A stretch of DNA of 27,616 nucleotides from a virus, in the IMG/VR virus record IMGVR_UViG_3300031957_002593, positions 1-27,616 of that record. One strand, written 5' to 3'. Under the pieces are notes generated by a model that saw only the letters and a program-made list of their open reading frames with translations, made no database searches and was not told the origin of the DNA. The position numbers and the translations under genes are program-made. Positions 2,571 to 27,509 of this stretch are shown in pieces (positions within the stretch are counted from its first letter, which is position 1; the number at the start of each line of letters is the position of its first letter).

Positions 2571-5500
2571 ATGGGAGACAAAAGAAATTATATTCTTGGC
2601 ACGCAGTATGGAACTAAAGGCGAAGAATTTAATAAATTAGAACAAATTTTGTTAGGCCTTGGTTCTGGAGGCCTTAAAATTTTTGAAGCCATAGCAGAAC
2701 TCGGAGCTGGTGTATCTGATTATTTTTTAGACACAGAGCTTTTAACATCAATAGAAGAAAATTTTCCAAAAATAAATGTAGACGATGGAGTGGGTAAGTT
2801 TGTTGAGTTAATGACTCAATACGCTGTTCCTTATAGGGTAGCAACAAAGGCCGCCGGTAAATTAATGGGCCTTAAAAAATTGGACGCATTAAGAAAAGGA
2901 ACAGGCGTTTCAGGTGTAGCTAAAAAAATGGGGTACTACGGAGGACTTGGTTTAGCAGTAGAGCCTATTGTAACAACCAGTAGAGACAAAACATTAGGAC
3001 AAGCATTTGGTATAACAGCGGATCCAAAAATTTCTGAATTAACAGGTAGAGCTAGAGCAGCGGCTACTTTTAAACAAAAAGCATTAATGGGAATAGAAGG
3101 CTCTGGAGTAGGTGCCGTTCTCCCAGTGGCAGGAGTTGCAGCTAAAGGTGCGTTGGTAGGAGCTACAAAAGTTGCTAAACCTGCAGCGCAAGCTTTGGAC
3201 TTTGCTGTTGTTAATCCTTTGTCTACTGTTCTTTCAAAAGGTCCAGTGGGAGACTACATTACACAACCCGTATTTAATACATTAACTAAAAGCGTTGCTA
3301 AAGCAAAAGAAATTACAAAAAACACTTTGGGGGCAAAAACATTAGACGAAATTAGATTAACTAGAAACCCTGAAAATTTTATTGGAAGACTTCAAAAAAC
3401 AATAGCTAATAATTTAACAACATCAGGAATGGTTCCAAAAAACGCTTTTGATGTTAAACAAGTTCAGTCAAATATTTTTAGAGCTAAAACAAAAGATCTT
3501 CACAATTTATCTCAAAGTATAGATGAAGCAATAACAAATTTAGCTAGAGAACATAAAGATGCTAAAAAAGGATTTATTGTAGATTCTCTTCCTAAAAAAG
3601 AAAAATGGTACGCTGATGTTGGCAGAGTTGTTGATGGTGACAAACCTTTAAGTCAATTACCAAAAGATTTAAGGCGTCCTGTTAAAGAACTTAAAGATAA
3701 GTATAGTGAATTAAAAAAAGAAATCACTGATTTAATGACTAGCAAAGAAGTCTTAAATACGAAAGGATTGACTTTGTTTAAAAAAACAAAAATAAAAGAC
3801 AGAGTAAAAGCTTTAACAACTAAATCATTGCAAGATGTTTTATCGAGAGGTTTACACGGGAGTTACGCAGCGTTTACTATGAAAGATACGTTTAAAATAA
3901 GAGAACCGGAACGAGTTAAAGCAGCTGTCAAAGAGGTAAAAGAATTTTTAAAAAGTCACAGTAAAGTTAAAGGAAATGACGCGTATTTTGAAACTCAAGC
4001 AAAAAAACAAATAGATTCTTTTATAAATCAAGCAGAAAAATCAAAAAATGCAGCTTATTTTTTTGATGAGGCTCTTCCTAATTTTCTTATTAGAAGTAAA
4101 AAAAGACCTAGAGGTAAAATTACTTTTATGGATTTAACTGATGCTAAATACAGGCAGTTTAAAACAAGAGGTTTAACAGACTCATTGAGTAGTCTTCTTG
4201 GAAAAGGAGGGGTCAAAGAGTCTATATTTGATACCAATATTTTTCTAGCTGAAATGGTAGCTAAAAAAAGAATGATAAATGAAATTTTTTTATTTAATAA
4301 AAATACAACAAAAGCCGGAACAAAATTTATTTTTCAACCTGACTATTCTGAAATTGCTAGAGAACAATCAAAGTTATTAGGTAAACCTATTCGAGCTAAC
4401 TCTGCAAAATCAGATCTAACTAAAGCTACGAATGACGTGTATGCTAATGACGTTATACAACAAAACTTAGAAAATCAATTTAAAAAACAATACCCAAACA
4501 TAGAACCTCCTAACTTTAAAAACATGGGAGAAGAATTTAAAAGAGCGGGAGTTAGCGATGATCCTTTTGGATATTACAAATATATGCCAGACCATTATGT
4601 GCCAGAAAATATTCACGAAGCGTTGTTAGGAGAAGTTGCTGGCTGGTCTGTGCTGTTAGATCATGTTCCGTTTTACAAAGGATTTTTAGGTCTTAAAGGT
4701 TTAACACAAGCAGGAAAAACTGTTTTTAGTCCTACAACACAAGTTCGTAACTTTACATCTGCATCGTTTTTTGCTTTACACAACGGTCACATTGGTAGAC
4801 CATTTGGTGGCGCAGAACACACATTTGCTGATATTGTTAAGGCGCACATAGACGAGGTATTTCCAAGCGGAAAAATTTCAAAAGAAAACGTTAAAAAAGT
4901 TTTGGGTGAAAAAAGAACTAGGGCCATAGAATTAGGTGTTACTCAAAGTAACATTGCAATGAGAGAAATAGACGATTTGTTAGAAGACGTGGTTTCAGGA
5001 CAATCGAGATATGCCACAACAACAGCGTTGTTTAAAAAAATTACTCAATCAGCTTCTTTTAAAAAATCTCAAGAATTGTATACAAAAGGAGATGATATCT
5101 GGAAAGATTACGGATGGAGATTTACACAGTCTCAATTAAAAGAAGCGTTACCAGAAGGCAAAAATTTTGTAAAAGACGTAGATGAACTTTATTTTGAAGT
5201 GTTTGGAAAACAATTTAATCATTTAAACGCTGATGGTAGCATTAAAACATACATGGAAACTTTAGAAGAAATTTCAGCTCAGTATGTCAAGAATACATAC
5301 CCAAACTATAACTATGTGCCTAAGTTTGTTAGAGACATAAGAAGACTTCCCCTTGGAAACTTTATTTCGTTTCCAGCAGAAATTTTAAGAACATCTGCCA
5401 ACCTTATGAAGTTTGCTGCAAAAGAAATGGCTAGCAGCAATCCGGTTGTAAGAAAGATGGGAGCTAAACGAATGATAGGTCAGACCATAGGTCTTTCTTC

Positions 5501-17024: not shown

Positions 17025-17703
17025 GTCATTAATCACCGAGCGTTATGACTACAAGGATGTTCGACGTAAGAAGGTGAACGGAAAACGATATTACGAAGGG
17101 GAGAACAAACTTCTTCCTTCGGTCACAACGGTTATATCTGCAACAAAAGATGAGAAAGATAAGGCGGGTCTTCAACGATGGAGAGACAAAGTTGGCGACG
17201 CAGAAGCAGATGCAGTTATGCATCAAGCGGCTTCTGTTGGTACCGCTATGCACAAATTTCTCGAGTGTCATATAAAAGGTGTTGGTTATGACGATAAAAG
17301 TAATATTGGTATTATAGCCAAGAGAATGGCGCAAACAATTATTAAGAATGCTTTACCATCAATGGACGAATACTGGGGCACAGAAGTTCCTCTTTACTAC
17401 CCCACGTTCTATGGTGGCACAGCAGACTGTGTAGGAGTTTGGCGTGAACAGCCCGCAGTTATTGATTTTAAGCAGACAAACAAGCCAAAGAAAGAAGAGT
17501 GGATTGATGATTACTTTACACAGTTGGCGGCGTACTGCATGGCGCACGATGCACTGTATGGTACAGAGATGAAAGCCGGTGTGGTTCTTATGGCGTCGCG
17601 TGGTATGGATCTACAAATGTTCACGATCAACGGCCAACGGTTAGATGATTACAAATACAAATGGCTAAAGCGATGCGAAAAATATTATAATTTAGGAGAG
17701 TAA
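17005..17703 (+). CDS. PD-(D/E)XK exonuclease, RecB/MGME1-like (232 aa)
   Basis: The order of motifs fits the RecB/Cas4/MGME1 exonuclease group. LPSVTTVI (37-44) precedes VGTAMHKFLE with H83; then EVPL (E127), GGTADCVGVW (D141), AVIDFKQT (D154, K156) and the helix YFTQLAAYCMAH (Q173, Y177). These residues bind two metal ions and position ssDNA ends. The full length (232 aa) is normal for phage members. It likely resects host or phage DNA, or trims ends during replication and recombination. Together with the nucleases at 6942 and 24200, it is one of three PD-(D/E)XK enzymes in the window. Confidence 0.88.
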   Translation: MAIQNLESLITERYDYKDVRRKKVNGKRYYEGENKLLPSVTTVISATKDEKDKAGLQRWRDKVGDAEADAVMHQAASVGTAMHKFLECHIKGVGYDDKSNIGIIAKRMAQTIIKNALPSMDEYWGTEVPLYYPTFYGGTADCVGVWREQPAVIDFKQTNKPKKEEWIDDYFTQLAAYCMAHDALYGTEMKAGVVLMASRGMDLQMFTINGQRLDDYKYKWLKRCEKYYNLGE

Positions 17704-17704
17704 A

Positions 17705-17962
17705 ATGACGGATAAAACTATACTTTGTGACACGTGTCAAACTCCCTTGTTAGAGGAAGAGTTACCAGAAAATAGAAGACCTTCGTTGACATCACTTATA
17801 TCTGGTGTGATCTTAGGTTCTTTTCCAACAGAACATGAGTGTATGGTATGTTATTTTAAAAGAGCAGACTTAGATGGTAAGTCAACTGATCCTAAAGATC
17901 AAAAATTACATAAAGAATTTATAAAAGAACAAGCTTCTATACGAAGAAAAAAATTCAATTAA
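17705..17962 (+). CDS. Small zinc-finger-like protein (85 aa)
   Basis: Two CxxC pairs, CDTC near residue 8 and CMVC near residue 46, are placed like the knuckles of a zinc ribbon. They are separated by a Pro/Ser-rich loop (ELPENRRPSLTSLISGV). The C-terminus is strongly basic (EQASIRRKKFN). This suggests a nucleic-acid or protein-binding adaptor, with no family that I recognise. The ribosome site GGAGAG precedes ATG 17705, 1 nt after the exonuclease stop, so both genes are in one operon. Confidence 0.6.
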   Translation: MTDKTILCDTCQTPLLEEELPENRRPSLTSLISGVILGSFPTEHECMVCYFKRADLDGKSTDPKDQKLHKEFIKEQASIRRKKFN

Positions 17963-17963
17963 A

Positions 17964-18707
17964 ATGTATAACATAACTGAACTACCACGATTTCAAAAAA
18001 ACTTTGGGCGACCGTACATCTACAAGAACGCATTGTTATTGATGGCCTCTGAATGGTTTATTGATGATAAGACGTTGCCTTTGATCAATAGTGCGCTACC
18101 GGTTATGCAACGTTTTGAGAACGAAGAGGGCCTTGAAGATCCCGAGCCTACCAAACTACGGAACACGATCAACGAACCGTTGAATGAAGTGTTTACTTTG
18201 CCTATCTTTTCAAAAGAGTTTTGTTCTGTATTCATGGACGAGGTGCACAACATGGAGAAACAATTTACATTTGAACCAAACTACAGAGAACTGAAACAGC
18301 ATCAGATAAATGAGTTTGTTTTACAAAATGATGCGAGAGACCTGTATCTGTCGTTAATGAAACTTGTTATCTCTAAAATCAATGTGGTCTTTCAAACGTT
18401 GTGGAACAGAGAAGTTGTGGGTGGTGGCATTCAAGTCGCGAACTACAACCCACGAGACATTAGTCAGACAGCATGGCATCATGACACGAGCGCGGACATC
18501 AGTATGGTGGTGCCGTTAAACACCGGAGATTACAAGGGTGGAGGTACAGAGTTCTTTGGACGAGGAGTTGTACCACCGTTGCCTAATGGACATGGTCTTA
18601 TTTTTCCTAGTTTTACTCACTTACACAGAGGTTTACCAGTCGAAGATGGTGATCGCTATTTATTGGTATTTTGGTTGCAATCAGAAGAACGAAAGGAAGA
18701 TTTATGA
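17964..18707 (+). CDS. 2-oxoglutarate/Fe(II)-dependent oxygenase (247 aa)
   Basis: The double-stranded beta-helix motif set is present: HxD as WHHDTSAD (H172, D174), the turn GGGTEFFG (192-199), the distal histidine in FTHLHRGLPV (most likely H221) and the 2OG-binding arginine in DGDRYLLVFW (R231). Spacing is that of prolyl-4-hydroxylase-like 2OG oxygenases. Such enzymes are frequent in marine phages, and the substrate (protein, nucleotide or lipid) is not predictable. The first 100 residues form an unassigned N-terminal part. The stop overlaps the next start (ATGA at 18704). Confidence 0.88.
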   Translation: MYNITELPRFQKNFGRPYIYKNALLLMASEWFIDDKTLPLINSALPVMQRFENEEGLEDPEPTKLRNTINEPLNEVFTLPIFSKEFCSVFMDEVHNMEKQFTFEPNYRELKQHQINEFVLQNDARDLYLSLMKLVISKINVVFQTLWNREVVGGGIQVANYNPRDISQTAWHHDTSADISMVVPLNTGDYKGGGTEFFGRGVVPPLPNGHGLIFPSFTHLHRGLPVEDGDRYLLVFWLQSEERKEDL

Positions 18708-22937: not shown

Positions 22938-23137
22938 GCATGTATAAACAAAAGATGTTTGATTTATCTGAGGAACGTATCAATCAGAAAATTACTCACC
23001 TTAGACACGGACTAGTCACAGTAGATGAGGTACTATCGGACTTACATGATGACATTGTAGTATCTAGCATGTGGTCATTGTTTGAGGTAGAAAAGATAAT
23101 TGGTTTTGAACTTAGACGAGGGGAGACAGTACAATGA
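22934..23137 (+). CDS. Hypothetical protein (67 aa)
   Basis: The 67-residue protein starts with SMYKQKMFDLSEERINQKIT and has a long helical middle (VDEVLSDLHDDIVVSSMW) and a basic end (ELRRGETVQ). It overlaps its neighbours by four bases at each end (ATGA), as in many phage small-gene trains. No family is recognised. Confidence 0.6.
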   Translation: MSMYKQKMFDLSEERINQKITHLRHGLVTVDEVLSDLHDDIVVSSMWSLFEVEKIIGFELRRGETVQ

Positions 23138-23247
23138 AAAAATACACGCGTTATATAAGCAATATGGGTTGGTTGTACATTGTAGTTATTTTGGGAGCCG
23201 TTTACTTCCCTGTACGAGCTATTATTTTTTGGGGGTGGGGAGTATGA
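23134..23247 (+). CDS. Single-span membrane microprotein (37 aa)
   Basis: ATG 23134 to TGA 23245-23247 gives 37 residues. A basic N-terminus (MKKYTRY) is followed by one hydrophobic span (MGWLYIVVILGAVYF) and a tryptophan-rich end (FWGWGV). It is embedded in an ATGA-coupled train of small genes, which supports its reality. Candidates are a membrane-perturbing or host-takeover peptide; evidence is limited to topology. Confidence 0.5.
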   Translation: MKKYTRYISNMGWLYIVVILGAVYFPVRAIIFWGWGV

Positions 23248-23396
23248 CAATAGACAACATAATCGAAGACATAAGAAACCTCAGAGACGCAGACTTTCAT
23301 GTCTGTCCTAACGAAACAGATGACAGTCTTGAATGTACCTGCGGACATTTTGATCAAGTAATAGATAAGTTAGAGGGGTTGAAGAATGGAAAGTGA
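23244..23396 (+). CDS. Small Cys-containing acidic protein (50 aa)
   Basis: ATG 23244 overlaps the previous stop. The chain has VCPNETDDSLECTCGHFDQV, three to four Cys in a row of spacing that could hold a metal, and an acidic helix at each side. It belongs to the same coupled train. The longer in-frame reading from 23100 is a shadow of the upstream genes. Confidence 0.5.
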   Translation: MTIDNIIEDIRNLRDADFHVCPNETDDSLECTCGHFDQVIDKLEGLKNGK

Positions 23397-23550
23397 TCTT
23401 GAGTTTGAGTACAACAACGAACAGTCTGAAGATGAAAATTTTGATAGATGGCTCCGTTGGACAAACAGAGAGCATAGAGCATACAACGAACCAGAGTACA
23501 CCAGACAACAAGGACTAATTGTTTTTAAAAAAATATATAAAAGTACTTGA
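23386..23550 (+). CDS. Hypothetical protein (54 aa)
   Basis: ATG 23386 lies in the last codons of the previous gene; the frame ends at TGA 23548-23550, so the -35 box of the next promoter (TTGACA 23547-23552) overlaps its stop codon. The product is acidic at first (ESDLEFEYNNEQSEDENF), then contains DRWLRWTNREHRAYNEPEY. The Trp/Arg/Glu mixture does not match a family that I know. Confidence 0.5.
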   Translation: MESDLEFEYNNEQSEDENFDRWLRWTNREHRAYNEPEYTRQQGLIVFKKIYKST

Positions 23551-23581
23551 CATTATGGGATATATGGATTACTTGTATATT
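23547..23581 (+). promoter_or_regulatory. Promoter of the 23605 gene (same shell as the right-arm cassettes)
   Basis: TTGACA at 23547-23552 is clear. The -10 is ambiguous: TACTTG at 23570 (17-nt spacer) or TATATT at 23576-23581. The downstream leader TATTAAATCTAACAAGGAGAA, ending in the ribosome site, is nearly the same as before the gene at 25389. Confidence 0.5.
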
Positions 23582-23604
23582 AAATCTAACAAGGAGAAAA
23601 TGAA

Positions 23605-23910
23605 ATGAAAATACTAGGCTTTGAAAAACCTTTTGGTGTAAAAGCAAAAGGTTTTAGTGAATGGAGAACAGTAAAAGTTAAACTAGAAACATTAAATGAT
23701 GGAAGCATTTATGGACATAATGTAGGAACGACTTTTAAATCTTCATACACACAAGACGAATTAAATGAGCATAAAAGAATACAGCAAGATGAGAAACCTC
23801 TTGAAGACAACGATATTGTTTTAATTGATGGTAAACAATATCAAGCAGAAGTTTTCAGTGCAGACCATAGTGACTGTGTTAATTTTAATTTAATAGATAT
23901 TCCTTGTTAG
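23605..23910 (+). CDS. Hypothetical protein (101 aa)
   Basis: A 101-residue protein under its own promoter, with an AAGGAGAAAATGAA start region (ATG 23605). The chain starts KILGFEKPFGVKAKGFSEWR and is beta-rich; the C-terminal third holds IVLIDGKQYQAEVFSADHSD. No family is recognised. Its promoter-leader shell resembles those of the accessory cassettes at the right end, but the two or three GGGCCC repeats do not accompany it. A structured non-coding segment follows. Confidence 0.55.
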   Translation: MKILGFEKPFGVKAKGFSEWRTVKVKLETLNDGSIYGHNVGTTFKSSYTQDELNEHKRIQQDEKPLEDNDIVLIDGKQYQAEVFSADHSDCVNFNLIDIPC

Positions 23911-23917
23911 AGGAAAA

Positions 23918-24037
23918 GAGAGAGTTGTAAGATAAACGTGAGTACACCGCAACTTGCAACTCTCTTGTTAAAATATTCTCAAGAGAACAGAGAGCCGAAG
24001 TCGTGTCAGGTTCGCTACCTGATGGTGTTAGGCTCTC
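23918..24037 (+). ncRNA. Structured intercistronic RNA with two strong stem-loops
   Basis: The 149 nt between two genes have no supported reading frame. Stem 1 pairs 23918-23931 (GAGAGAGTTGTAAG) with 23953-23966 (CTTGCAACTCTCTT), 14 bp with two G-U pairs and a 21-nt loop. Stem 2 pairs GAGAGCC (23990-23996) with GGCTCTC (24031-24037) and encloses a hairpin TCAGGT (24006-24011) with ACCTGA (24017-24022) and a TCGCT loop. The GAGAG and CTCTC segments could re-pair between stems, as in a switch. The downstream ribosome site at 24049-24053 lies outside. No T-run follows, so it is not a standard terminator. I match no known family. Confidence 0.5.
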
Positions 24038-24059
24038 GCTAAATAACGAAGGAATAAAT

Positions 24060-24200
24060 ATGACTGACTATGAAATAATTATCAAAGTAGACGGCAAAGA
24101 ACTACATCATTCAGTGTTAAATGATTTAACTTATCAAAGTATTTCAGAAGATATTGCAGAGTATTTTGAGAAGATAGAAAAGGAATGTTCCGTTGAATAA
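24060..24200 (+). CDS. Hypothetical protein (46 aa)
   Basis: ATG 24060 follows GAAGGAATAA; the longer frame from GTG 24003 would read through stem 2 of the structured RNA, so it is less likely. The 46-residue acidic product has TDYEIIIKVDGKELHHSVLN and an amphipathic end (EYFEKIEKECSVE). The stop overlaps the next start (TAATG). No family is recognised. Confidence 0.5.
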   Translation: MTDYEIIIKVDGKELHHSVLNDLTYQSISEDIAEYFEKIEKECSVE

Positions 24201-24589
24201 TGAGTGGTAAAAATGAAACAAAATTATGGAAACTCATTAAACAACGTACCCCCAGAATTCGTTGGAATAGAATAGAAAATTCTGTCAATCGCGGCTTCCC
24301 AGACCTTATTGGAAGCCAAGCCAATAGCCATTTTTTTACAGTGGAACTTAAAGTAGCAAATGCCTCCGATACGATAGTGTTTTCAGCCCACCAAGTTGCC
24401 TTTCATCTGACCAATTACGGCTCCAAATTTATTATGACAACGAGCCGTTGTCAGTCAGCCGTAAAACTTTTTCAAGGTACGCTAGCTAGCGAACCACGAG
24501 TAAAATTAACGAACCACGAGCCGTTGTTCGTTGTCCACGATACGCTTGACCTTGTCCAATGGGACATGCTCCAAGATCTTCTAGTTTAG
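24200..24589 (+). CDS. PD-(D/E)XK nuclease, Holliday-resolvase-like (129 aa)
   Basis: The motifs are E6 in the first helix, GFPDLIG (P34, D35) and TVELKVA (E49, K51), then SAHQVAFHLTNYG (Q65), the exact spacing of VRR-NUC/Holliday-junction-resolvase-like enzymes. It probably resolves branched DNA before packaging. The C-terminal third (about residues 98-117) is encoded by DNA that contains parts of the right-arm repeat family (GAACCACGA twice, TTCGTTGTCCACG and ACGCTTGAC), so the C-terminus may have been replaced by repeat sequence. It overlaps the previous gene by one base. Confidence 0.75.
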   Translation: MSGKNETKLWKLIKQRTPRIRWNRIENSVNRGFPDLIGSQANSHFFTVELKVANASDTIVFSAHQVAFHLTNYGSKFIMTTSRCQSAVKLFQGTLASEPRVKLTNHEPLFVVHDTLDLVQWDMLQDLLV

Positions 24590-24603
24590 AATCATTCTAA
24601 TTT

Positions 24604-24719
24604 ACGCTTGACAATTCACGGGCCCACCCACCCTTGTCCGTGGTTCGTTGTCCACGCTTGACGGTTCACGGGCCCACCCTCCCTGAATCACGCATGACGG
24701 CTCACGGGCCCTCCCTCCC
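24604..24719 (+). repeat. GGGCCC-type ~30-bp repeat, copies 1-3 with abutting palindrome
   Basis: Copies at 24604-24633, 24654-24683 and 24690-24719 begin ACGC(T/A)TGAC and end GGGCCC(A/T)CCC(A/T)CCC. Between copies 1 and 2, CGTGGTTCGTTGTCCACG (24639-24656) is an inverted repeat whose last ACG is the first ACG of copy 2. All copies have the same orientation. Confidence 0.85.
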
Positions 24720-24731
24720 CAAGTGAAGCTA

Positions 24732-24792
24732 CGTTGTCTGACATAACAGCTCGTTATACAGTGTGGCATAAATGTCACAGTAGATAATAAAA
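24732..24792 (+). repeat. Upstream leader element of cassette 1 (duplicated at 25273)
   Basis: CGTTGTCTGAC (24732-24742) and a 27-nt block beginning GCATAAATG and containing CACAGTAGATAA (24766-24792) recur at 25273-25283 and 25293-25319. The 27-nt blocks differ at two positions only. They lie at the same place relative to the promoters. Confidence 0.75.
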
Positions 24793-24815
24793 GTGAAAGA
24801 AAGTGAAAAAAGGGG

Positions 24816-24843
24816 TTGTATCTATCCCACAATCTGCTAGGCT
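24816..24843 (+). promoter_or_regulatory. Cassette 1 promoter
   Basis: TTGTAT (24816-24821), 16-nt spacer, TAGGCT (24838-24843). The -10 is weak by itself, but its position matches TATGTT at 25354 and 26014 in the sister cassettes, each with a 16-nt spacer. Confidence 0.5.
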
Positions 24844-24874
24844 AAGGTAACTCTAACAAACAAGGAAAAATGAT

Positions 24875-25144
24875 ATGAAAAAACAATACGAAAAAGCATA
24901 CAACGAATTAAAAGAAATCGGTGTTCCTGTTATCCAAGGAGACATGAACGACAACCCAGACCGTTTCCGCATTAGTGCTGAGACTGGAGAGAACTGGGCA
25001 GACTACTGGGCGATTGGTTTCAACGAAGCTGAGTTGGGCTTAGATGACTTTGGAGTTAATCCAAAGATCAACACTATCTTGGACAAGCATGGCCTGTACG
25101 CCGAATGGTACGACCCGGGTACGTTGATTGTCTGCGAGGCTTAG
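24875..25144 (+). CDS. Cassette 1 cargo: hypothetical protein (89 aa)
   Basis: This 89-residue acidic protein begins KKQYEKAYNELKEIGVPVIQ and contains FRISAETGENWADYWAIGF, then a C-terminal KHGLYAEWYDPGTLIV. The last part, helix then 'GLYAEWxDPGTL', is reminiscent of plasmid-borne DUF proteins, but I do not assign one. Its codons use noticeably more G and C than the phage core genes (for example in the GACAACCCAGACCG stretch), consistent with recent acquisition. It is a single gene with its own promoter and ribosome site (AAGGAAAAA), between GGGCCC repeats. Confidence 0.65.
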   Translation: MKKQYEKAYNELKEIGVPVIQGDMNDNPDRFRISAETGENWADYWAIGFNEAELGLDDFGVNPKINTILDKHGLYAEWYDPGTLIVCEA

Positions 25145-25156
25145 TTGACCACGATC

Positions 25157-25245
25157 CGTTGTCCACGGTCATTGACCGTGGACAACGCTTGACGCTTCAA
25201 GGGCCCACCCTCCCTACGCTTGACGGTTCATGGGCCCACCCGCCC
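25157..25245 (+). repeat. 31-bp palindrome plus GGGCCC repeat copies 4-5
   Basis: A perfect 15-bp-arm palindrome, CGTTGTCCACGGTCA (25157-25171), T, and its reverse complement (25173-25187), runs directly into copy 4 (25185-25214), sharing ACG. Copy 5 (25216-25245) follows after one base and ends GGGCCCACCCGCCC. Confidence 0.9.
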
Positions 25246-25272
25246 GAGTAAATTGTGTCACGTGAAACATTT

Positions 25273-25319
25273 CGTTGTCTGACGAGGGTGTTGCATAAAT
25301 GCCACAGTAGATAACAAAA
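25273..25319 (+). repeat. Upstream leader element of cassette 2
   Basis: Second copy of the element at 24732-24792: CGTTGTCTGAC (25273-25283) and the 27-nt block GCATAAATG...CACAGTAGATAA (25293-25319). The distance between the two parts is shorter than in cassette 1. Confidence 0.75.
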
Positions 25320-25331
25320 AGAAAATAGTTG

Positions 25332-25359
25332 TTGACCTTATCCTTGATTATGCTATGTT
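25332..25359 (+). promoter_or_regulatory. Cassette 2 promoter
   Basis: TTGACC (25332-25337), 16-nt spacer, TATGTT (25354-25359), followed by ATTAAATCTAACAAAGGAG up to the ribosome site. The segment TATGCTATGTTTA is also present at the 26026 gene. Confidence 0.65.
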
Positions 25360-25388
25360 TACATTAAATCTAACAAAGGAGAAGACAA

Positions 25389-25868: not shown

Positions 25869-25876
25869 AGAACGAC

Positions 25877-25968
25877 CGTCAACCGTGGACAACGAACCAC
25901 GGTTGACGCTTGACGGCCAACGGGCCCACCCTCCCTATTACGCTTGCAAGCTTGAGGGCCCACCCTCC
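25877..25968 (+). repeat. Palindrome plus GGGCCC repeat copies 6-7
   Basis: CGTCAACCGTGG (25877-25888), an 8-nt loop ACAACGAA and CCACGGTTGACG (25897-25908) form a hairpin whose end ACG is the start of copy 6 (25906-25935). Copy 7 (25940-25968) has a different middle, GCTTGCAAGCTTGA. Its inner part CGTGGACAACGAACCACG (25884-25901) is the exact reverse complement of 24639-24656. Confidence 0.9.
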
Positions 25969-25991
25969 TAAGAAATAAAAAAAAATAAGTC

Positions 25992-26277: not shown

Positions 26278-26342
26278 ATTACGCTTGCAAGCTTGAGGGC
26301 CCACCCACCATTACGCTTGACAACTCTAGGGCCCACCCTCCC
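26278..26342 (+). repeat. GGGCCC repeat copies 8-9
   Basis: Copy 8 (26281-26309) has the same variant middle as copy 7 and forms with 3 upstream bases a perfect 29-nt direct repeat with 25937-25965. Copy 9 (26313-26342) has the ordinary ACGCTTGAC opening and follows after 3 bases. Seven A residues come next. Confidence 0.9.
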
Positions 26343-26355
26343 TAAAAAAATTGAA

Positions 26356-26415: not shown

Positions 26416-26443
26416 TTGCTTATATAGTATAAATCTATATAAT
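26416..26443 (+). promoter_or_regulatory. Promoter of the DUF932 gene
   Basis: TTGCTT (26416-26421), 16-nt spacer and a perfect TATAAT (26438-26443). Transcription would start near 26450, giving a leader of about 160 nt. Confidence 0.6.
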
Positions 26444-26449
26444 TTTGGT

Positions 26450-26610
26450 TGTCTGGTAGGCGGTTTATATAGTTTACAAAATCGGACTTTGATTAGCTAT
26501 ATATTCAATCTGGTTTCCAGCTCGGAGCCTAAGCTCTTAAATCTCAAACAAGCGGGGGCAATAATGCGCCCGTAATCTAACAGGGATCAAAGATCTCAGA
26601 AAGTAATACT
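26450..26610 (+). ncRNA. Long structured 5' leader of the DUF932 gene
   Basis: The leader holds several hairpins: CTGG/CCAG (26510-26520), GAGC/GCTC with loop CTAA (26525-26536), a strong CGGGGGCA/TGCGCCCG stem with one G-G mismatch and an ATAA loop (26553-26572), and GGGATC/GATCTC with an AAA loop (26583-26597) right before AGAAAG, the weak ribosome site. No stop-free frame or known riboswitch consensus was seen. Translation could be controlled by the last hairpin. Confidence 0.45.
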
Positions 26611-27453: not shown

Positions 27454-27459
27454 TTTCTC

Positions 27460-27509
27460 TTGACACATCATCTAGTAGGTAGCCTTCGGGCTACCTACTA
27501 CATGTAGTA
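27460..27509. promoter_or_regulatory. Right-end control element: TTGACA, UUCG hairpin, palindrome
   Basis: TTGACA (27460-27465) is followed by TAGTAGGTAGCC (27473-27484), a TTCG loop and GGCTACCTACTA (27489-27500): a perfect 12-bp stem capped by the stable UUCG tetraloop. TACTACATGTAGTA (27496-27509) is a perfect 14-bp palindrome overlapping it. ATCTAGTAG and CTACTACAT, the two halves of the operator motif seen at 16591 and 21765, both occur here in swapped order. No U-run follows the hairpin, so it may be an RNA processing or stability element rather than a terminator. Confidence 0.5.

Follow-up and report, generated by a model that had tools for sequence, protein, structure and literature searches.

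A probable two-unit member of a modular RNA-hairpin array family of marine phages

We report that a virus record from IMG/VR (27,616 bases, analyzed whole and hereafter called the window) very probably carries a two-unit member of a modular family of RNA-hairpin arrays found in marine, mostly pelagiphage-like, phages. Compensatory changes and strand-specific pairing among its sequence relatives indicate that the feature is a structured RNA kept by selection, and the family as a whole looks like an undescribed set of swappable phage RNA parts. The phage noncoding RNAs known to us are mostly single elements; an array of structured modules held in a constant frame and passed among unrelated phages would be the RNA counterpart of exchangeable defense and antidefense gene cassettes. 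The carrier phages have relatives that infect SAR11, the most abundant bacteria in the sea, and the roughly 58 module types recognized (27 A and 31 B) allow a direct search for partners.

Architecture of the window array and its gene neighborhood

Among cultured phages, Pelagibacter phage HTVC023P has the DNA polymerase closest to that of the window (52% amino acid identity), which makes SAR11 or a comparable marine bacterium the probable host. Phages of the HTVC023P type are podoviruses (PMC9599517).

The array occupies positions 23898 to 24046 on the plus strand, between a 101-amino-acid open reading frame (ORF; 23605 to 23910, plus strand) and a 46-amino-acid ORF (24060 to 24200, plus strand), and reads in the order A1, B1, linker GTTAAAA, A2, B2, linker GCTAAATAA, AGGA, and ATG (24060). 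Hairpin A1 (TATTCCTtgttagAGGAAAA; 23898 to 23917), the first hairpin of unit 1, folds by pairing TTCCTT with GAGGAA; it covers the final codons of the upstream ORF, whose stop codon at 23910 lies inside it, and its position and frame match those of A hairpins in other arrays. Hairpin B1 (23918 to 23966), with relatives in the phage locus L002 (two copies) and in L340, folds into a 14-bp stem (GAGAGAGTTGTAAG/CTTGCAACTCTCTT; arms at 23918 to 23931 and 23953 to 23966) and an inner 3-bp hairpin, GUG-AGUA-CAC. The between-unit linker GTTAAAA (23967 to 23973; consensus G[CT]TAAAA) leads to hairpin A2 (TATTCTCAAGAGAACA; 23974 to 23989), which also stands before the same B2 in L105, L109, L202, L343, and L345. 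Hairpin B2 (23990 to 24037; 8 distinct sequences, and 87 bits in the window with covariance model R1) has a 7-bp outer stem, GAGAGCC/GGCTCTC (23990 to 23996 with 24031 to 24037), and an interior with a GAA/GUUA internal loop, inner stems GUCG/UGGY and UCAGGU/ACCUGR, and the loop UCGC(U/A); the enclosed hairpin has a 6-bp core and extends to 8 bp in the minimum free energy (MFE) fold. The terminal linker GCTAAATAA (24038 to 24046) stands where closing linkers stand in other arrays. The window thus fits the A-B-linker definition of the family, with small departures: A1 ends in AAAA, A2 in AACA, and B1 in CUCUCUU.

An initial annotation of this DNA had described the 14-bp stem and a second stem enclosing a 6-bp hairpin, both of which are present, and had set the limits of the element at 23918 and 24037; the true start lies earlier, at the first base of A1, and A2, which lies between the two stems, had been missed, as had the modular makeup of the feature and the sharing of its units with unrelated phages. 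It rightly held that a translation start within the fold was unlikely, as both the predicted ribosome-binding site of the 46-amino-acid ORF (AGGA; 24050 to 24053, plus strand, outside the fold) and its ATG are 3' of the fold. Its remark that no T-run follows agrees with our scan for intrinsic terminators (a G+C-rich hairpin and then a T-run), which returned no site in 23450 to 24250. The array does not fill the only long gene-free gap, as had been proposed, since longer ones exist at 25145 to 25388 (244 bases) and 26428 to 26610 (183 bases). G+C-rich dispersed repeats of the CGCTTGACGGTTCACGGGCCCACCC type are found in gene-free gaps of the window at 24602 to 24722, 25145 to 25319, 25873 to 25985, 26313 to 26352, and 27458 to 27508, and also in L002, L003, and L005.

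None of five proteins scanned from the neighborhood of the array has a Pfam match, including the product of the next gene (129 amino acids; 24200 to 24589, plus strand). Relatives of this gene are encoded in 597 candidate stretches of viral contigs and served as a route to related loci. A search of viral contigs for relatives of the 101-amino-acid ORF returned none. That ORF is absent from this place in L002, a near-identical phage, which carries in its stead a promoter (TTGACA-17-TATAAA) followed directly by its array (TTGACA-17-TATAAA-AAA-TATTCC across the junction); a decayed coding sequence in relatives, which the initial annotation had named as an alternative, is not what is found there.

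Evidence for selection on RNA pairing

The 120-nucleotide stretch from B1 to B2 folds at −43.2 kcal/mol, compared with −27.5 ± 3.5 kcal/mol for dinucleotide shuffles (z, −4.46; 0 of 200). Extended to 23896 to 24048, the plus strand reaches −49.8 kcal/mol (z, −4.45) and the minus strand −43.1 kcal/mol (z, −3.35).

Covariation within modules lends support of differing strength to these folds. In the window B2 family (8 distinct, closely related sequences), 98.5% of cells are paired, against 31 to 48% in slid controls, and two pairs have changed on both sides, a count equaled by 14 of 500 shuffles; we regard this as moderate support for the predicted pairing. The outer stem GAGAGCC/GGCUCUC, in which covariation had been named as a check by the initial annotation, hardly varies within its own family and draws its support from comparison across families. 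Support is strong for module a5 (GCGUUAUGUAAGGU), whose 14 distinct sequences, set in two frames, are 91.6% paired versus 78.2% when shuffled and have double changes at six pairs and in 29 cells, versus 4.3 and 8.0 in shuffles (0/500 for cells and for covariation score). The six sequences of module GAGAUGACC have double changes at 4 of 11 pairs, and the GUG..CAC pairing of window B1 is AUG..CAU in L002, so that each of the two window hairpins belongs to a family with compensatory changes. Loops and internal loops (GCGUUAUGU, UCGC, and GGUAAGACA) are conserved while stems vary. Model R1 recovers B2 copies at 87 to 88 bits, and its weaker matches are mostly other B hairpins of arrays.

Comparison across module types, with one sequence taken per type, reveals that stem arms fit their own partners. 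Over 31 B types, stem positions 4 to 8 form on average 4.52 of 5 pairs with their own partner versus 3.03 when partners are swapped, and positions 6 to 9 form 3.26 of 4 versus 1.82, neither difference being reached in 10,000 permutations; positions 1 to 3 are uninformative because the B types, some of which were added by eye, were curated partly by their clamps. An earlier, uncurated B set that included false candidates gave the same result (4.07 versus 2.88 of 6; 0 of 4,000), and the 27 A types pair at 3.41 of 4 with their own partner versus 2.50 when swapped (0 of 5,000).

The first nine stem positions of the 31 B types contain 18 G-U pairs and no A-C pairs, which argues that selection acts on the RNA of one strand. 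Of 56 B hairpins, 45 fold better on the array strand than on the complement and 8 fold worse; for the 27 A types, the counts are 17 and 5. These sequence data point to pairing selected in RNA of one strand, namely, the strand of the upstream gene. The initial reading of the feature as an unassigned structured intercistronic RNA is upheld by the compensatory changes, by this one-strand selection on pairing, and by the lack of any Rfam 15 family above its gathering threshold in the window.

A mosaic array family and its relation to known systems

Pattern scans of linker, clamp, and module gathered related arrays of 1 to 7 units at about 36 marine phage loci, a count restricted to loci with recognized B hairpins after chance hits were removed. 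Each unit consists of a hairpin A (UAUUY...RAUA), a hairpin B (GAG...CUC) that abuts it directly, and then the linker G[CU]UAAAA. Clamp and linker are constant across units, and the interiors, about 27 A types and 31 B types that recur and are shuffled, are distinct RNA folds. A and B hairpins combine freely: window B2 follows A2 (UAUUCUCAAGAGAACA) in several phages, but in L082, L103, and L347 it follows different A hairpins.

The arrays start at a predicted transcription start (in L002, L089, L146, and L336, right at it) or at a stop codon, and on the other side they run up to a ribosome site or to the terminus of a convergent gene. The upstream gene is co-oriented with the array strand in 32 of 33 assessable cases, drawn from loci that form a few related groups and are not independent. 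The convergent gene of L105, L202, L340, L341, and L345 ends exactly at the closing linker of the array, and its product contains an HELMH-like metalloprotease motif.

Arrays differ between close relatives, and cassettes recur in unrelated phages. L002 is ~95 to 98% identical to the window phage in the flanks and has a different array at the same place; the contig G001 is ~95% identical to the window elsewhere yet carries a different array; and L003, L005, and L007 have single or double units of other types. Conversely, L103, L105, L109, L343, L345, and L347 share with the window array DNA only, over 68 to 89 bp. When array contigs were compared all versus all with blastn, the sole stretch shared by the window and the 37-kb contig G005, from an unrelated phage, was 83 bp long (94% identity) and corresponded to window positions 23959 to 24041, that is, to unit A2-B2 with its linkers. 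The portal protein of G005 is closest to that of pelagiphage HTVC106P, a tail protein of G012 to those of Skadi pelagiphages, and a structural protein of G006 to that of Roseobacter phage CRP-901, affinities which argue that modules cross widely different phage groups. Module a5 links G006 with L146 (63 bp, 98%) and G012 with G006 (37 bp, 97%).

A second frame extends this mosaic. In L350 to L360, L362, L363, and L365, a5 lies within GUUUCC...GGGAAUA in double-hairpin arrays with the linker (G)UAAA, mostly directly downstream of a gene for a single-strand DNA-binding (SSB)-like protein ending in DDIPF. As a5 occurs in both frames, a module can be retained when its frame changes. Other modules (for example, GTTTCGCTGAGCGA with GAGAGC..GGCTCTC and GAAGTTTCG) make up additional arrays in L367 (G003; 3995 to 4228) and L375 (G012 contig; 27993 to 28122), and L373 (G005 contig; 23363 to 24071) is a 709-base gene-free stretch that folds strongly. 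One B module contains a 16S rRNA-like AAUAAGCAC, a resemblance that could be due to chance. A hammerhead-like CUGACGAG in one A module was rejected as a ribozyme candidate, as the GAAA strand is absent and Rfam has no match.

Database searches returned no described counterpart. A permissive Rfam search of 23600 to 24200 gave chance-level matches only, and 25 loci carrying arrays or modules gave none at either gathering or permissive thresholds. An INPHARED DNA search with window positions 23000 to 25200 and three array segments gave only one chance match of 26 bases; a linker-pattern scan of GTDB genomes gave 117 stretches, about the level expected by chance, none with array features; and a loose A-hairpin pattern in viral contigs gave no new array among the matches listed. 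Models R1 and R2 found nothing in 197 genomes of the SAR11 order, a search without a positive control whose empty answer proves little. A search of cultured SAR11 phages for abutting hairpins by structure was insensitive, having missed the window array, and is not counted as evidence. In one such phage (L381, HTVC027P), positions 17670 to 18219 contain perfect hairpins that abut without a gap (ACTGATCCC..GGGATCAGT and GCAGGGG..CCCCTGC) and then a T-run; this looks like a terminator region with no sequence relation to the arrays.

Several known systems share some features with the arrays. The BIME/REP elements of enterobacteria are mosaic stem-loop arrays in transcribed intercistronic or 3' regions, built from a few near-identical palindromes present in many copies per chromosome. 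The phage arrays are likewise mosaic, with fixed motifs in varying combinations, but they differ in their constant clamps, their dozens of structurally different interiors, their sharing between unrelated phage genomes, and their RNA-strand selection, and in the contigs searched, neither model R1 nor model R2 detects more than one strong copy in any genome. The toxI RNAs of type III toxin-antitoxin systems are near-identical tandem structured repeats adjacent to a ToxN gene; the phage arrays are also tandem structured RNAs, possibly cut at their linkers, but their units differ from one another and the five neighboring proteins lack a Pfam match. STAXI, one pseudoknot repeated in two to three tandem copies, is a small structured RNA that often neighbors genes encoding single-strand DNA-binding proteins (PMC2864571). 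The second dialect of the phage arrays similarly follows an SSB-like gene, but each array unit folds differently and has no Rfam match. The small guide RNAs of TIGR-Tas come in tandem arrays in phages and combine constant edges with short spacers as variable parts (PMC12045711); compared on array features alone, the hairpin arrays are also tandem with constant edges and variable parts, but these parts are self-complementary and recur between phages. Racrs (RNA anti-CRISPRs) are small RNAs by which phages counteract the host, each a solitary CRISPR repeat (PMC10651486). The arrays, which are multihairpin, may also act against the host, but the analogy is one of function only. Integron attC arrays are marked by R/L box core sites and an integron integrase; no integrase occurs among the window proteins scanned. 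We found no description of such arrays of exchangeable clamped RNA modules in the open-license literature, and BIMEs, STAXI, TIGR arrays, and type III antitoxins each appear to lack a central property of this architecture.

Candidate functions

The account that we tentatively prefer, at slightly less than even confidence for the whole statement with its mechanism, is that of a modular array whose transcribed, linker-cut A-B units act as small RNAs. The arrays would be transcribed together with the abutting gene or promoter, and the AU-rich linkers (AAAAUAUUC, or AAAGUUUC in the second dialect) would be cut, possibly by host RNase E. RNase E prefers RN|WUU, which both linkers fit, a motif that is short and common by chance in AT-rich sequence. 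The released units would be small structured RNAs that bind proteins or RNAs of the host or the phage in the course of infection; they might, for instance, be decoys for host RNA-targeting factors. On this view, the quick replacement and the sharing of units would be marks of an arms race, as with antidefense gene cassettes. We favor action in trans on two grounds: stems change around conserved loops and internal loops, and the units have spread across unrelated phages with different neighbors. A broader and more speculative proposal, which we consider rather unlikely in its full form, is that marine phages draw on a common, rapidly evolving stock of RNA cassettes (an "RNA accessory genome") in which clamped double hairpins are exchanged in arrays, transcribed, cut at linkers, and act in trans against different host targets.

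Close behind stands a role in cis, to which we assign a real but smaller probability, namely, that the arrays are 5'- or 3'-terminal mRNA hairpins that protect against nucleases, place RNase cuts, or separate the expression of neighboring genes, with no trans activity. The arrays lie inside untranslated regions, between a predicted transcription start or stop codon and a ribosome site or convergent gene end, a placement also compatible with action in cis alone. Stabilizing hairpins, however, need no conserved loops, and the loops listed above are kept while stems change; moreover, local control in cis would by itself leave the near-identical cassettes in unrelated phages and different neighborhoods unexplained.

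An improbable alternative is a set of separate RNA aptamers, one per B (or A+B) module, each with a partner of its own and without any shared function, for which the array is just a recombination hot spot. The ~31 B types with unrelated interiors within identical clamps and linkers are what such a collection would look like, but the 0-nucleotide A-B joint and the linker, constant throughout, suggest one common handling machinery. Marginally less probable is that the arrays are selfish mobile palindromes of the BIME or MITE kind, which spread as DNA without RNA function. Cassettes do jump between unrelated phages, in many mosaic combinations and at gene-free sites, but the idea is largely refuted by the asymmetry of 18 G-U to 0 A-C pairs and by the better folding of one strand; orientation is also fixed relative to the upstream gene, loops and internal loops are conserved, and the window proteins scanned include no transposase or integrase.

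Least probable by far is a riboswitch or other two-state cis regulator built from both stems, the initial annotation having raised a two-state switch. In its favor are the complementary GAGAG and CUCUC segments in each stem and the place of the array before a gene. Forced folds put the exchanged pairings of the B1 5' arm with the B2 3' arm and of the B1 3' arm with the B2 5' arm 9.4 and 21.9 kcal/mol above the MFE, costs that leave the switch unsupported, and there is no expression platform, T-run, or Rfam match. The repetition of these segments is real and is explained by array architecture, as it is the common clamp repeated in all arrays, from 1 to 7 units, including those where the downstream gene is convergent.
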